This document shows positions 15,750 through 24,790 of a stretch of 27,944 nucleotides of DNA, in pieces. The DNA lies in IMG/VR virus record IMGVR_UViG_3300044675_001380, positions 1 through 27,944 of that record, one strand, 5' to 3'. Origin of the DNA: a virus. Positions within the stretch are counted from its first letter, which is position 1; every line of letters begins with the position of its first letter. The notes beneath the pieces are model-generated. The model had not been told where the DNA came from and made no database searches. It worked only from the letters and a program-made list of their open reading frames with translations. A program made the position numbers and the translations under genes.

Positions 15750-16462
15750 TTATTGGCTTTTCATTGCCTCGACCTCTTTCTTGTCCGAGTAATATTGAAC
15801 GTAGTTAAGAAACTGGCGTGCGTTTAAATTAAAGATGGCATCCCATTTGAGAACGTCACCCATTGCCAAAGAATCCACGACTACTATCCAGCCGTATTTT
15901 TTAGCGAGGTTAACTCCTTGTCCATCGTCTTCAGCACCGCCTCCGAATAATCCTTGATAATCGTCATAAAGCCTTCGGAGGCTAACAAGAAAAAAGATAC
16001 AGCACCCCACACTTCCTTCATTGTAAGCTGCTTAAACTCCTCTGCCCTTTCGTGGTGCTTTGCGCCATCGTAAGGTAGAGTCCTAAACCACTTGCGCTCT
16101 CTTGCAAGCGTAGCCATTATTTTATGAAGGTTTTGAATCACTTGGTACTCGTCTGCCATTTCGTAACTCATCATCTCAATTAACTGACCAGCCGTTAGGG
16201 TATCGGTAAACAACGAAAGCTTGTAACGCTTTTTATTTAGGGTGAAGGTTTCCTTATATTGCAACTTCGGCAAATCCTTCATTTCATCTTCGATGGACTT
16301 ATACGCCTTGCCCACCTCGGTCATAGGTAGCTGTTTCGCTTCGTCTAAGCTAATCCCTTTAAGGACTGCAACGATAGCCACCTTCTTAATTTGCTCGTCA
16401 CCAGTAGCCTCAATGGCTGCGATGCGTTGGAATTGGTCGATAGTTAATGATGTGAATTTCAT
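15750..16462 (-). CDS. Tail assembly chaperone, long -1 frameshift form (GT-like), about 237 aa
   Basis: The short chaperone frame is joined by -1 frameshifting to a second frame ending at 15750. That frame encodes KKYGWIVVVDSLAMGDVLKW and FLNYVQYYSDKKEVEAMKSQ, a tail-chaperone C-terminal domain of the kind I know from Bacteroidota phages. A shift at A AAA AAT (15902-15896) gives 189 + 48 residues. The overlap frame has no ATG and only a GTG at 16010 with no ribosome-binding site, so independent translation is unlikely. As in phage lambda G/GT, the minor long form recruits tail tube protein while both bind the tape measure. A second slippery heptamer, T TTT TTC (15995-15989), is in the same register and would insert about 31 additional second-frame residues. 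Confidence 0.75.
15884..16462 (-). CDS. Tail assembly chaperone, short form (G-like), 192 aa
   Basis: A helical protein starting MKFTSLTIDQFQRIAAIEAT and ending LTSLKNTAG, with the recognisable MSYEMADEYQVIQNLHKIMA segment. The ATG at 16462 is preferred over 16486 because it overlaps the upstream methyltransferase TGA by 4 nt. It is the major product of a frameshifted pair that helps assemble the tail tube around the tape measure. Unusually, three other genes separate it from the tape-measure gene. Confidence 0.75.
   Translation of the reverse strand: MKFTSLTIDQFQRIAAIEATGDEQIKKVAIVAVLKGISLDEAKQLPMTEVGKAYKSIEDEMKDLPKLQYKETFTLNKKRYKLSLFTDTLTAGQLIEMMSYEMADEYQVIQNLHKIMATLARERKWFRTLPYDGAKHHERAEEFKQLTMKEVWGAVSFFLLASEGFMTIIKDYSEAVLKTMDKELTSLKNTAG
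15896..15902 (-). promoter_or_regulatory. -1 ribosomal frameshift heptamer A AAA AAT
   Basis: In the chaperone frame the codons are CTA AAA AAT, giving X XXY YYZ, 15 nt before the TAG of the short form counting from its last base. Slipping back one base enters the frame ending at 15750. Position just ahead of the stop matches lambda G-GT. Confidence 0.75.
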
Positions 16463-16965
16463 GGCTTGTAAAATATAGACAAGCACCTTCCACGCTCGTC
16501 TGCTGTGGTTTTGTTTTCGGGGTAGCCTAAGTCTTTAATAAAGCCAGCTAAGTCTATTTGGTCGGTGTCGTGAATGATAAACGTACCGCCTGACTTTACC
16601 TTTTCCCAAAATAAAAGCAATTCAGGCACTACCGATTGTCCGTGCTGCGCATCGTGCATTATCATTTCGACTGGCTCAATCCAATTTAGAACCTTTGCGC
16701 TCTCGCACATTGCTGCGGTGTTTACTATACAACTGTGGCTTTCCAGCAAATCGGTTACTTTGTCTAAGTAGTCAATATGAATATCAACTAAAGAAACTTC
16801 CATTTTAGCCAAACCCATAGCTAAAGCAGAGTGACCTTGAAAGCAGCCGATGTCCAATGCGTGACCTTTTAGCCTTTTCGCTTCGTCATACACTTGCAAA
16901 ATGTGTTCCTTTGCTGTCACCCACGGATGGGAGTAGTCTAATTTTTCTAAGATTTTGCGTTCCAT
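16459..16965 (-). CDS. Class I SAM-dependent methyltransferase (Methyltransf_24-like), 168 aa
   Basis: Motif I is ALDIGCFQGHSALAMG (residues 36-51). The acidic residue after the second strand is in SLVDIHIDYL, and motif IV-like is EMIMHDAQHGQSV. FWEKVKSGGTFIIHDTDQID follows. This is the pattern of small Methyltransf_24 enzymes that methylate sugars or small molecules. It lies immediately downstream of two glycosyltransferase-like genes and is coupled to them by overlap, so it may methylate the sugar they attach. The acceptor is unknown. Its stop overlaps the chaperone start. Confidence 0.75.
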   Translation of the reverse strand: MERKILEKLDYSHPWVTAKEHILQVYDEAKRLKGHALDIGCFQGHSALAMGLAKMEVSLVDIHIDYLDKVTDLLESHSCIVNTAAMCESAKVLNWIEPVEMIMHDAQHGQSVVPELLLFWEKVKSGGTFIIHDTDQIDLAGFIKDLGYPENKTTADERGRCLSIFYKP

Positions 16966-18395: not shown

Positions 18396-19626
18396 TTACG
18401 CCTGCAATATAAAATATTTTCCCGAATTAGCCACCTTTAATTTATTGAGTGCCACATATCTAAGCGCATCAATAGCGTGGTTTTGGAAATCTACTGGCTC
18501 GTCAAGCATTTTGCCATTCTTGTCTTGCTTCCACTTGTATTCTCTAAATTCCTTAATAAGATTCACGCTGTTTTTAGTAACGTGTATCTTTTGCCTTCTT
18601 AATATGTCAATTGAGTTGCGTATGCTATCAGCCCCCTTTTTTGCTGGATGTATGTTAAACCCAAGCCTATGAACTTCTTCAATGCTTTTTGGCTCTGCGC
18701 TGTCTGCAATTATTTCTTGCGTTCGGTTTATAGCCATTGATTTCATTTTTGATGCTATATCTTGATTGGTCAAATTTCTTTCATAAATTAATTCTTCAAC
18801 ATACAAATCATCTCCCTTTTTCCATACAGCAATTAAAGCAGTTGGATCATTGGTAAATCCCCAGTCTAATCCAAGCGAAACAAACTTGCAATTGATTCTA
18901 TCAATGTCATCAACTTGTTCCCAATTCTCAAAAACAGCCCCTTGAAGCGTTCCAATTTGACCAAGGCCATACACCTTCCACCAATTAGCCCAATATTCAG
19001 ATGTCTTTGCTTTTTCCCTTGCTTGCTCTATGTCTTTTTTAATTGTGTCAGGAAGCGCCTCGTTATCTAAATAATTTAAAACAATTAATTCGGAATCAGG
19101 CTCTTTTAAAACTTCGGTATGCGCCCAAAATTCAGCAGTTGGATTAAAGTCCAACCAAATATCTTCACTTGTTCTTATTGCTAATTGATGATATGATTCA
19201 AAAGTTATGTTGTTGCACTCATTGATATAAAGAACCTGCCTTCTTGCGCCTCGTAATTTTTCTTCTTGGTCTGCAGAAAAAAACTCAATATAACTTCCAT
19301 TGCTAAATCTATAAGTCAACAATGTACTATTCCAGCCTTCATTTCTCCATCGATTTGTGGCTACCATTATTTTCTTAAAATCCTTAATCGCACCCCGTCG
19401 AAGATGAGGTATAGATTCCGAAACAACGCTAATTTCTTTTAGCGATGCACGTGCTGCCAAATCTATTAAAATAGGCAATATTCCAAACGTCTTTCCAATT
19501 CACCCCCTCCGTTGCCAAAGGGGGTTAACGCCCTGCAGATGTTCCACCCTGGACTACTTTCTTTCGGGCGGTCATCTGCAGTAGCTTGTTTATTGCGCTT
19601 GTGCGTATAAATGTTTGTACTCCCAT
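18396..19626 (-). CDS. terL: Large terminase subunit (TerL); frame split by a 37-nt insert within Walker A
   Basis: The packaging motor ATPase/nuclease. The first 32 codons (19626-19531) read MGVQTFIRTSAINKLL, then QMTARKKVVQGGTSAG. Then follow 37 nt that are out of frame. The remaining 365 codons (19493-18396) begin KTFGILPILIDLAARA. Joining them restores the Walker A motif GGTSAGKT and a 397-aa protein of normal length. Later motifs are VVSESIPHLRRGA, RQVLYINECNN (Walker B region), GLDWGFTNDPTA, IIADSAEPKSIEE and FQNHAIDALRY (nuclease acidic residues). The 5' end overlaps the HNH gene by 37 nt. Without removal or bypass of the insert no Walker A-containing protein can be made. An internal TTG at 19478 would yield an ATPase-dead fragment. 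Confidence 0.85.
19494..19530 (-). other. 37-nt out-of-frame insert in Walker A codons; candidate translational bypass element
   Basis: Between Gly codon GGG (19533-19531) and Lys codon AAG (19493-19491) lie 37 nt. They contain TAA (19527-19525) in the upstream frame and TGA in the downstream frame. A strong hairpin occupies 19525-19502: 7 Watson-Crick pairs (ACCCCCT/AGGGGGT), two G-U, one G-C and a GCAA tetraloop. The insert ends with GGA, which could be the landing codon for tRNA-Gly. GGAGG (19510-19506), an SD-like sequence, precedes it. All these are properties of the T4 gene 60 bypass sequence. An inactivating insertion or an assembly error is possible. Confidence 0.6.
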
Positions 19627-20159
19627 TTGTATCCGTATGCTGTTTTGTATCGTTTTTCTTTTTTGCAACACTTAATAATACCAACGGTATTATAGCCTTG
19701 TTCACGCAATATTTGCTTTATACTTCCCCATTCTTTTATAATCTTTCCATTTATATCTAACTGCAACACAGCAAGGCTTTGTGGATTGTCTTTTCCCTTT
19801 GCCTTGATATTTAAACCGGTATCAAAAGAATGTTTAATATTTTCGCTTGGTGTAGCCCACTCTAAATTAGAAACGCAATTGTTTATCTTGTTGCCATCTT
19901 TGTGATTAATTTGGCTCTTCAATTCTTTATTTGTAATAAAGGCAAATCCCACAAGCCTATGAACCATATGGTATTTTCTCTCTCCGTTTTTAAACAGCTT
20001 GACTTGATAATACCCAGCCCCCTTTAATCTTAGCGTGATTGGTTTTGCAACACAATGCTGGGGGTTTGTTGAATTTCCATTACCCTTGCTTCTTACGTTT
20101 CCGATATTAGAAACCTCGTAAAGCCCCTCGTATCCAATTATATCTTTCCATTTTTCCAT
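19590..20159 (-). CDS. HNH homing endonuclease (NUMOD4-HNH-NUMOD1), 189 aa
   Basis: Residues 1-25 (WKDIIGYEGLYEVSNIGNVR) are a NUMOD4 domain. Residues 64-110 are the HNH nuclease, with MVHRLVGFAF, QINHKDGNKINN and NLEWATPSENIKH supplying the His and Asn residues. Residues 129-182 form a NUMOD1-type DNA-binding tail ending AYGYKWEYK. It is a free-standing homing endonuclease that nicks or cuts an intron-less target and spreads its own gene. It is inserted between small and large terminase genes, and the large terminase start lies inside its last codons. TATATTTG stands 2 nt before its ATG region (20170-20163). Confidence 0.9.
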   Translation of the reverse strand: MEKWKDIIGYEGLYEVSNIGNVRSKGNGNSTNPQHCVAKPITLRLKGAGYYQVKLFKNGERKYHMVHRLVGFAFITNKELKSQINHKDGNKINNCVSNLEWATPSENIKHSFDTGLNIKAKGKDNPQSLAVLQLDINGKIIKEWGSIKQILREQGYNTVGIIKCCKKEKRYKTAYGYKWEYKHLYAQAQ

Positions 20160-20200: not shown

Positions 20201-20620
20201 CTAAGATTCGGGAAATAAAGGCTGTTCTTGTTTGATTTCTGTTTGTTGCTTATCTACCAAGTTGTTTAAACGCTGCGTAATGCTCGCATTGTATTGACCT
20301 ACCATGCCACCTTCAATTTGATCTTGGCGAATTGCACGCCTAATACGTGAACAGATAGCAACATATTCTAAATACCTATTATCACGATTTTCAAAATACT
20401 GACCTAAATCTTGCGCTATTTCGTTGTCAGCACACCAATTTTCAAAGCCCTCCATTGTCAATGGGGTTTCAAGCAACTCATAATCTTTGTTGCCATCTTT
20501 GCCAACAAACACCATTTTCTTTCGAGGGTTAGATTTAGTCTGCTTTCGGTAAGACTCAAAATGTTCCCATAACCTTTCAGGTGTTTCAATGTATTTTGTT
20601 CTTCCTGCTGCTGTTCCCAT
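20201..20620 (-). CDS. terS: Small terminase subunit (TerS), 139 aa
   Basis: The motif series TPERLWEHFESYRKQTKSNP, ETPLTMEGFENWC, YLEYVAICSRIRRAIRQDQI and VGQYNASITQRLNNLVDK is that of the DNA-packaging small-terminase family I know in Bacteroidota phages. The final residues (EQPLFPES) are a typical disordered tail. It recognises phage DNA and delivers it to the large subunit. Its ATG shares one base with the stop of a 46-aa gene (TAATG). In ordinary genomes TerL follows directly, but here the HNH gene intervenes. Confidence 0.85.
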   Translation of the reverse strand: MGTAAGRTKYIETPERLWEHFESYRKQTKSNPRKKMVFVGKDGNKDYELLETPLTMEGFENWCADNEIAQDLGQYFENRDNRYLEYVAICSRIRRAIRQDQIEGGMVGQYNASITQRLNNLVDKQQTEIKQEQPLFPES

Positions 20621-23674: not shown

Positions 23675-24790
23675 TTATGGCATTTTTGAAATAGCTTGAA
23701 ATATTTGGTAAACCACTTGCGGAACTATGGCATTACCGGCTGCCTTTATGCTTTCGTTTCTCCATTTAGAAAAGGTAATGTTGTCCAATCGGGAGGAAAG
23801 CCCATCATCTCCAGCACAAATGGGGGGTTGAGTTGGGAATTCTTGCCACCCCATTCTGCGGAATTGTTTGCTATTGTTCTCGTCAAATTTTGTTGCTTGT
23901 ATTTGTTTCCCTTGACTTTCTCTCCCGTGTCCCGATATTCTCCTGCTAATGGAGTCGGTAGCATTCCCATTTTTGCCATTGTCGTTAAATCGTCTATCCT
24001 CGAATCCTCTATCCTTTGATGGCTGTTCCCGTGTCCTTTTACTCTTGGCGTCGGAAGCATTCCTGTAACCATTGCTCTCACCAATGTTACGCTGTGCATT
24101 GATCCCTCCTTCACTTGCGTTGACTTCATATTGGCTGTCGCATTGCTGCTGTCCATTGCAGTCGGAGTTGGTAGCATTTTCCGTAGTGCTAAATCCGCAA
24201 TGTTCAAGCTGTGGCTGTTGCCGTTCAATGCTTTCCTCCGATTGTTTTCCGTTAGTTCGGCTTGAAGGTGTGGCGTTTCTTGAGTGGTTACAGTAGGCAA
24301 CAAACCAAACCCTATCCCTTCGGTGGGGAGCGTTGACGGCACAAGCTGGAAGTACAAACGGTTGTACTTCGTACCCCTCAGCCTCCAGGTCAGCCTGCAC
24401 TTCGTTGAATACCAACCCTCCATTCCAATTAACAAGTCCGAGAACATTCTCGCCCACAACGTAGGTCGGCTGAATTTCTCGTATTGCTCGAAGCATCTCT
24501 GGCCAGAGGTGTCGGTCATCTTCTTTTCCAAGTCGCTTACCAGCCTGTGAGTACGGTTGGCAAGGGAATCCACCTGTGAGGATGTCGATTTTTCCTCGGT
24601 GAATAGTAAAGTCTGTTGTGGTGATATCTTCATAGCTTTTTGCTTTAGGCCAATAATATTTTAAAACTTTTTTTCCAAATTCATTCCATTCGCAATGGAA
24701 CACGTTCTCCCAACCCATCCACTCCGAGGCTAAATCAAAGCCTCCAATACCGCTAAATAAAGAGCCGTGCCTCACATCAACCCCTCCCAC
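23675..24790 (-). CDS. DNA (cytosine-5) methyltransferase, 371 aa
   Basis: C5-methyltransferase motifs are intact: motif I FSGIGGFDL (12-20), motif IV GGFPCQPYS with catalytic Cys77 (73-81), motif VI GENV (113-116), motif VIII HRRDRVW (156-162), and motifs IX/X near the end, RNESIKAAGNAIVPQV. The residues 170-310 are an N/S/G/D/R-rich low-complexity target-recognition region. It probably protects phage DNA from host restriction. It overlaps the HTH gene by 19 nt. A long second frame (24633-23746) is open within it. Confidence 0.85.
   Translation of the reverse strand: MGGVDVRHGSLFSGIGGFDLASEWMGWENVFHCEWNEFGKKVLKYYWPKAKSYEDITTTDFTIHRGKIDILTGGFPCQPYSQAGKRLGKEDDRHLWPEMLRAIREIQPTYVVGENVLGLVNWNGGLVFNEVQADLEAEGYEVQPFVLPACAVNAPHRRDRVWFVAYCNHSRNATPSSRTNGKQSEESIERQQPQLEHCGFSTTENATNSDCNGQQQCDSQYEVNASEGGINAQRNIGESNGYRNASDAKSKRTREQPSKDRGFEDRRFNDNGKNGNATDSISRRISGHGRESQGKQIQATKFDENNSKQFRRMGWQEFPTQPPICAGDDGLSSRLDNITFSKWRNESIKAAGNAIVPQVVYQIFQAISKMP
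23746..24633 (-). CDS. Overprinted 295-aa ORF within the methyltransferase gene (LPTP-repeat protein)
   Basis: In the +1 frame relative to the methyltransferase, ATG at 24633 opens a 295-codon frame with protein-like order: SQVDSLANRTHRLVSDLEKK, LTWRLRGTKYNRLYFQL, LPTEGIGFGLLPT, three LPTP motifs (MLPTPTAMD, MLPTPRVKG, MLPTPLAGE) and LNPPFVLEMMGFPPDWT. I know this series from database proteins next to or within phage C5 methyltransferases, for example TTQE-x-H followed by SHSLN. An 888-nt stop-free second frame in this AT-rich DNA is unlikely by chance. It may be an accessory recognition protein or an ancestral frame. Translation is not proved. Confidence 0.45.
   Translation of the reverse strand: MKISPQQTLLFTEEKSTSSQVDSLANRTHRLVSDLEKKMTDTSGQRCFEQYEKFSRPTLWARMFSDLLIGMEGWYSTKCRLTWRLRGTKYNRLYFQLVPSTLPTEGIGFGLLPTVTTQETPHLQAELTENNRRKALNGNSHSLNIADLALRKMLPTPTAMDSSNATANMKSTQVKEGSMHSVTLVRAMVTGMLPTPRVKGHGNSHQRIEDSRIDDLTTMAKMGMLPTPLAGEYRDTGEKVKGNKYKQQNLTRTIANNSAEWGGKNSQLNPPFVLEMMGFPPDWTTLPFLNGETKA

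Follow-up and report, generated by a model that had tools for sequence, protein, structure and literature searches.

How a large terminase subunit (TerL) could be made from a gene whose Walker A motif is split by 37 non-coding nucleotides is the question raised by a virus record from IMG/VR (IMGVR_UViG_3300044675_001380), of which a stretch of 27,944 nucleotides was analyzed (this whole stretch is referred to below as the window). A sequence-only reading of this DNA had proposed that the ribosome hops over the insert, and had named a dead terminase or an assembly error as alternatives. On the evidence described here, it is very likely that the insert is a programmed translational bypass element and that it belongs to a mobile cassette with a homing endonuclease, although bypassing itself is inferred, in the absence of protein or RNA data.

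The interrupted terminase gene

The features that are relevant to this question are as follows:

20201..20620, minus strand: terminase small subunit (phrog_606, identified with PHROGs), the upstream neighbor of the TerL region
19590..20159, minus strand: free-standing homing-type endonuclease with NUMOD4 and HNH_3 domains (Pfam); its 3' end overlaps the TerL start
19531..19626, minus strand: TerL 5' coding segment of 32 codons, ending ...VVQGGTSAG, aligned with exon 1 of relatives
19531..19533, minus strand: take-off codon GGG, the Walker A Gly (class-G site)
19494..19530, minus strand: 37-nt non-coding insert, landing codon included (proposed bypass element)
19525..19527, minus strand: TAA in the take-off frame, one codon past the take-off codon
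19502..19525, minus strand: hairpin of 10 bp with a GCAA (GNRA) tetraloop and a G-rich, SD-like 3' arm (predicted fold)
19494..19496, minus strand: landing codon GGA, directly before AAG (Lys)
18396..19493, minus strand: TerL 3' coding segment (KTFG..., the remaining ATPase and the nuclease domain; Pfam)

The split in the Walker A motif was re-read and holds as first described, with GGTSAG ending at GGG (19533-19531) and KTFG following at AAG (19493). On the minus strand, the 5' segment from ATG 19626-19624 to GGG 19533-19531 is MGVQTFIRTSAINKLLQMTARKKVVQGGTSAG; the assignment of the TerL start to this ATG is inferred, and the exon 1 pattern of relatives that aligns with the segment is M-F-x-R-T-T-A-I-N-K...QGGTSAG. 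The 3' segment resumes at AAG 19493-19491 as KTFGILPILID... and is open to 18396, with Pfam matches to Terminase_3C (E 4e-19) and Terminase_3 (E 2e-6). Between them, the 37-nt insert (19530-19494, minus strand) reads CGTTAACCCCCTTTGGCAACGGAGGGGGTGAATTGGA. The earlier account of the reading frames was also borne out: in addition to the TAA in the upstream frame, a TGA (19502-19500, minus strand) is present in the downstream TerL frame two codons ahead of the landing codon, and no stop interrupts the third frame across the insert (ORF 19705-19466).

The 10-bp GCAA hairpin that had been noticed in the insert was reproduced by the predicted fold, and its core occurs only once within the window. 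When the 77-nt region was shuffled, the predicted folds were only slightly less favorable (z -1.46), and the evidence that the hairpin is more than a chance structure is therefore comparative. An Rfam search of the window detected no RNA family and no group I intron core, and a search for tRNAs and tmRNA found none. The portal and tail genes and other structural genes of the window appear intact.

Elsewhere in the window, two long ORFs in different frames (23675-24790 and 23746-24633, both on the minus strand) have about 890 nt in common; one of them is a Dcm-type methylase (PF00145, phrog_363), and the other matches methyltransferase family phrog_1008. Ahead of the tail genes, two ORFs that overlap, 200 and 86 aa long (15750-16486, minus strand), are a candidate tail-chaperone frameshift pair.

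Inserts in related phages

When relatives were searched for the insert, both identical copies and many differing inserts were found at the Walker A site. An IMG/VR search with the downstream part of TerL detected five loci (L001-L005) with the identical insert, which excludes an assembly error, and several loci with different hairpin inserts. With the addition of three further protein searches and two pattern scans, inserts were observed in TerL genes of related Bacteroidota-type phages at no fewer than 168 loci, representing at least 58 distinct elements, a recurrence that cannot be a coincidence. Some of these loci come from one contig and overlap each other, the sample consists only of metagenomic contigs, and sequence relatedness inflates the counts. 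The scan patterns demanded GGGG in the stem and a GGN-Lys landing at Gly sites, so that those counts are partly ascertained; both features are present in every insert found in protein-driven scans that lacked this filter. Protein-driven scans that were blind to the insert found one in 21 of 230 dereplicated TerLs.

No isolate carrying an element was found among cultured phages. The nearest cultured relatives are Flavobacterium psychrophilum phages (identity of 44-56%, varying with the query used), in which TerL is annotated as a single uninterrupted CDS. On the bacterial side, one Chitinophagales MAG contig (L311) carries an element; pattern scans of about 790 bacterial genomes from two orders otherwise returned only look-alikes, many of which are intact GGTSFNP...GKT ORFs that were judged by eye to be DnaA-like. 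A covariance model recovered TerL copies and weak hits from 0.81 Mb of the related phages, with nothing convincing outside TerL. Two weak hits outside TerL were inspected and rejected, one as a terminator-like hairpin and the other as a chance hit. Literature searches found no account of these TerL elements.

Anatomy of the inserts

Across the set of at least 58 elements, the take-off codon encodes the Ser, Ala or Gly of GGTSAGK, three adjacent codons. Gap lengths, counted so as to exclude the take-off codon and include the landing codon, range from 36 to 44 nt, and in the 58 elements listed they fall into all three mod-3 classes (35, 15 and 8 elements in classes 0, 1 and 2, respectively). Reading on in the take-off frame would meet a stop in 55 of these 58, including every element with an in-frame gap. 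This stop directly follows the take-off codon in most of the elements at Ser sites and in some of those at Ala sites, but not in the window.

The position of the hairpin is well preserved. Whichever take-off codon is used, the stem starts 5-7 nt past it in all 54 distinct gaps listed, and the last G of the stem lies 3-11 nt before the landing codon. The latter distance is 6-9 nt in 50 of the 54 gaps, consistent with the SD-like G-rich run that had been recognized ahead of the landing codon in the window, and an SD action of this arm is inferred. The inner pairs of the stem vary (C-G, G-C, A-U, U-A, G-U and U-G) in a manner that includes compensatory pairs; the outer pairs are nearly always C-G, which is partly demanded by the scan pattern. 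The hairpin loops are often GNRA.

The two Gly codons bounding the proposed hop in the window, GGG and GGA, were confirmed; they are synonymous, not identical, and relatives exhibit codon matching throughout the family. At Ser sites, a TCN take-off codon is matched by TCA or TCG at the landing site (10 of 10 listed). Among the 38 Ala-site elements listed, 25 land on GCN and 11 more on GTN, with a middle G-U pair. Gly sites have GGN at both positions, the landing GGN being demanded by the scan pattern. Overall, take-off and landing codons are alike in their first two bases in 45 of the 58 elements listed, and the combination GCN/GTN accounts for 11 more. L323 has a Ser at the Ala position, with codons TCG and TCT, and L409 is an exception in which take-off at TCG is combined with landing at GCA. 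For L409, as well as for Ala elements landing on GTN or ATA, codon re-pairing would be imperfect. The TerL 5' segment is rich in Lys and Arg, and the sequence ARKK is enriched in carriers, yet it also occurs in some non-carriers, and a nascent-peptide signal like that of T4 is not established.

Given that the codon match follows the site, that the distance to the hairpin is fixed, that the spacing of the G-rich arm is SD-like and that the frame is a matter of indifference, these features together implicate the ribosome rather than a nuclease or a splicing enzyme.

Selection on the split gene

Judging by substitution patterns, the downstream TerL of carriers is under strong purifying selection. 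The exon 2 dN/dS has a median of 0.04 and a maximum of 0.14 over 606 carrier pairs, and the exon 1 dN/dS in carriers is 0.15. The inserts are themselves conserved, with a median identity of 1.00 as against 0.72 at fourfold-degenerate sites, and with the higher value belonging to the insert in all 642 pairs. Exon 1 of carriers ends in GGTS without exception (the GGT is demanded by the scan pattern), an ending for which rejoining of the P-loop is the only sensible explanation.

Homing endonucleases and mobility

The association of the inserts with endonuclease genes is observed well beyond the window. Among the loci listed, an HNH or GIY-YIG ORF directly precedes TerL in 26 of 80 carriers versus 1 of 181 non-carriers (p 3e-14). 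These are dereplicated loci with enough flanking sequence, and the endonucleases, which were found by motif, are possibly under-counted; none was detected next to TerL in the other 54 carriers. The neighboring endonucleases belong to two unrelated families, HNH and GIY-YIG, as confirmed by Pfam and PHROGs.

In a tree of 154 TerLs, the presence of the insert changes at least 30 times, and 22 of these changes are forced by well-supported branches. When carriers are paired with non-carriers, exon 1 identity is 0.68 at a median exon 2 identity of 0.89, and exon 1 identity inside either group is 0.89-0.93. This observed linkage shows that the insert and the TerL 5' segment are inherited together, as expected from homing co-conversion. 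Asymmetric co-conversion of one flank is known for phage homing endonucleases (PMC2988022).

In L239, an HNH gene adjoins a TerL without an insert, and the P-loop is recoded as GGSSAGKT. The insert-free TerLs of L087, L090, L093, L118 and others feature GGTSAAKT, in which Ala replaces the Walker A Gly; these are possibly endonuclease-resistant alleles. DNA methyltransferase-like ORFs are found in some carriers, just upstream of TerL in L262 (2234-2878, plus strand) and just upstream of the endonuclease in L423 (1330-1962, plus strand).

Proposed mechanism and alternatives

In the proposed mechanism, the ribosome would translate TerL as far as the Walker A Gly codon GGG. With GGG in the P site, the nearby stop and the hairpin a few nucleotides downstream would block ordinary decoding, the peptidyl-tRNA-Gly would detach, and the ribosome would slide across the gap. 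The tRNA would re-pair at GGA, with the G-rich 3' arm as an SD-like guide, and translation would restart at AAG to yield a continuous GGTSAGKTFG; related elements would follow an equivalent route with peptidyl-tRNA-Ala or peptidyl-tRNA-Ser. Both the bypass event and its efficiency are inferred. However, the original suggestion of bypassing gains support from the recurrence at Walker A of inserts that differ in length and frame, from the constant distance between take-off codon and hairpin, from a landing codon that is usually synonymous and from the purifying selection on TerL, even without proof at the level of protein or RNA.

The cassette would comprise the element, the TerL 5' segment and the HNH (or GIY-YIG) gene that precedes TerL, moving by homing. 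The endonuclease would cut TerL genes without an insert, close to Walker A, and carriers would be shielded by their insert, which would be harmless to them because it is bypassed; the endonuclease target and the protective role of the insert are likewise inferences. More broadly, it is likely that mobile bypass elements are widespread at the TerL P-loop of Bacteroidota-type phages, with dozens of origins or moves, use of Gly-, Ala- and Ser-tRNAs (including landing with a middle G-U pair) and two unrelated endonuclease families.

Any exact excision from the mRNA would also restore TerL, and an RNA-processing enzyme could be directed by a hairpin that is conserved between variable flanks. Nevertheless, removal of the insert before translation as a tiny intron, either self-splicing or enzyme-driven, is unlikely. 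A length of 36-44 nt is far below that of known self-splicing introns, and there is no Rfam match; the junction nucleotides are not conserved, and a synonymous codon pair is kept instead. The site shifts by whole codons while the distance from codon to hairpin remains constant, and neither the take-off-frame stops nor the SD-like spacing have a role in splicing. Excision at the DNA level, in which a subpopulation of genomes sheds the element and expresses TerL, might be suggested by the existence of insert-free alleles of nearly identical TerLs (for example, L275 and L289), but is extremely unlikely: given the strong divergence of insert-free relatives in exon 1 (identity 0.68, with 0.88 in the best pair, at an exon 2 identity of 0.92), these are different alleles and not excision products.

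Readthrough and/or frameshifting would produce a TerL with 12-14 extra residues, and the downstream part could alternatively be reinitiated separately. The fact that 35 of the 58 listed gaps are multiples of three is compatible with the former, and a G-rich arm does lie ahead of the resume site. With gaps in all three mod-3 classes and a stop in every in-frame gap, however, neither readthrough nor one fixed frameshift fits. In addition, ATP binding should be lost if the P-loop were broken or contained extra residues, the resume site shows no conservation of start-like codons, and selection acts on exon 1 as well, all of which make this group of explanations very unlikely. A dead terminase, a defective phage or an assembly artefact would account for an essential motif that is broken on paper, but this is almost certainly incorrect, given the identical insert in other contigs, the carrier dN/dS of about 0.04, inserts that are better conserved than synonymous sites and the intact portal and tail genes of the window. 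Neither of the alternatives first attached to the bypass proposal is thus retained.

Implications

To our knowledge, T4 gene 60 has been the sole well-established phage bypass, and high-efficiency bypassing in bacteria and phages has rested on it. Bypassing of the TerL inserts would be new relative to the logic of T4 gene 60 and MobA in its widespread occurrence and in affecting another gene. If true, bypassing would be a protective device that free-standing homing endonucleases use in general and not a T4 oddity, and the inserts would illustrate how homing endonucleases have repeatedly come to colonize the best-conserved motif of an essential gene. Dozens of compact natural elements, with matched controls that lack the insert, with take-off at three sites and with hairpins that covary, may also provide comparative rules for take-off, sliding and landing. 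In carrier genomes, gene callers will report a truncated TerL, an annotation error that affects a standard phage marker gene.

Comparison with known systems

T4 gene 60 has a GGA take-off codon, a stop, a stem-loop and, 6 nt ahead of the landing GGA, a GAG; its neighbor is the HNH gene mobA, and a link between the insert and the spread of this gene has been proposed (PMC11194080, PMC5009743, PMC3014915). The analogy to this system, drawn initially from the window insert alone, is strengthened by the adjacent homing endonuclease and by the wide family of inserts. In both systems, a non-coding gap parts two ORFs of one protein, a stem-loop is found near the take-off site (albeit with a different geometry), and the landing codon is preceded by an SD-like sequence; like mobA, the HNH gene in the window adjoins the interrupted gene. 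The T4 bypass spans 50 nt and is accompanied by the free-standing HNH endonuclease MobA, whereas the TerL elements span 36-44 nt and are in part accompanied by HNH or GIY-YIG endonucleases. Unlike in T4, the TerL hairpin is wholly inside the gap, 5-7 nt after take-off, the stop is not always adjacent (in the window it is one codon past take-off), and a 5' stem-loop is not established. The TerL elements also differ in their host gene, which is interrupted at the P-loop, in the phage group, in the existence of Ala and Ser versions, in take-off after roughly 30 codons, and in numbering dozens that have been repeatedly gained or lost.

The mitochondria of Magnusiomyces capitatus contain 81 bypass inserts, with take-off and landing codons that are often, but not always, perfectly matched (PMC5009743). 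These are similarly numerous and short, and are tolerated through translational bypassing; however, they are distributed over many genes and seem to be independent of context, whereas the TerL elements have one site, a defined hairpin and endonuclease neighbors. Bypassing has been proposed for a terminase gene, but with a much shorter gap and a link to a rare UUA codon (PMC5009743). That case lacks a hairpin insert in the P-loop, and the review that describes it reports no homing endonuclease. Finally, phage group I introns and inteins with HNH or GIY-YIG endonucleases also occupy highly conserved motifs and undergo asymmetric co-conversion (PMC2988022), but the TerL element is neither an intron nor an intein, is only 36-44 nt long, and has its endonuclease gene outside it.
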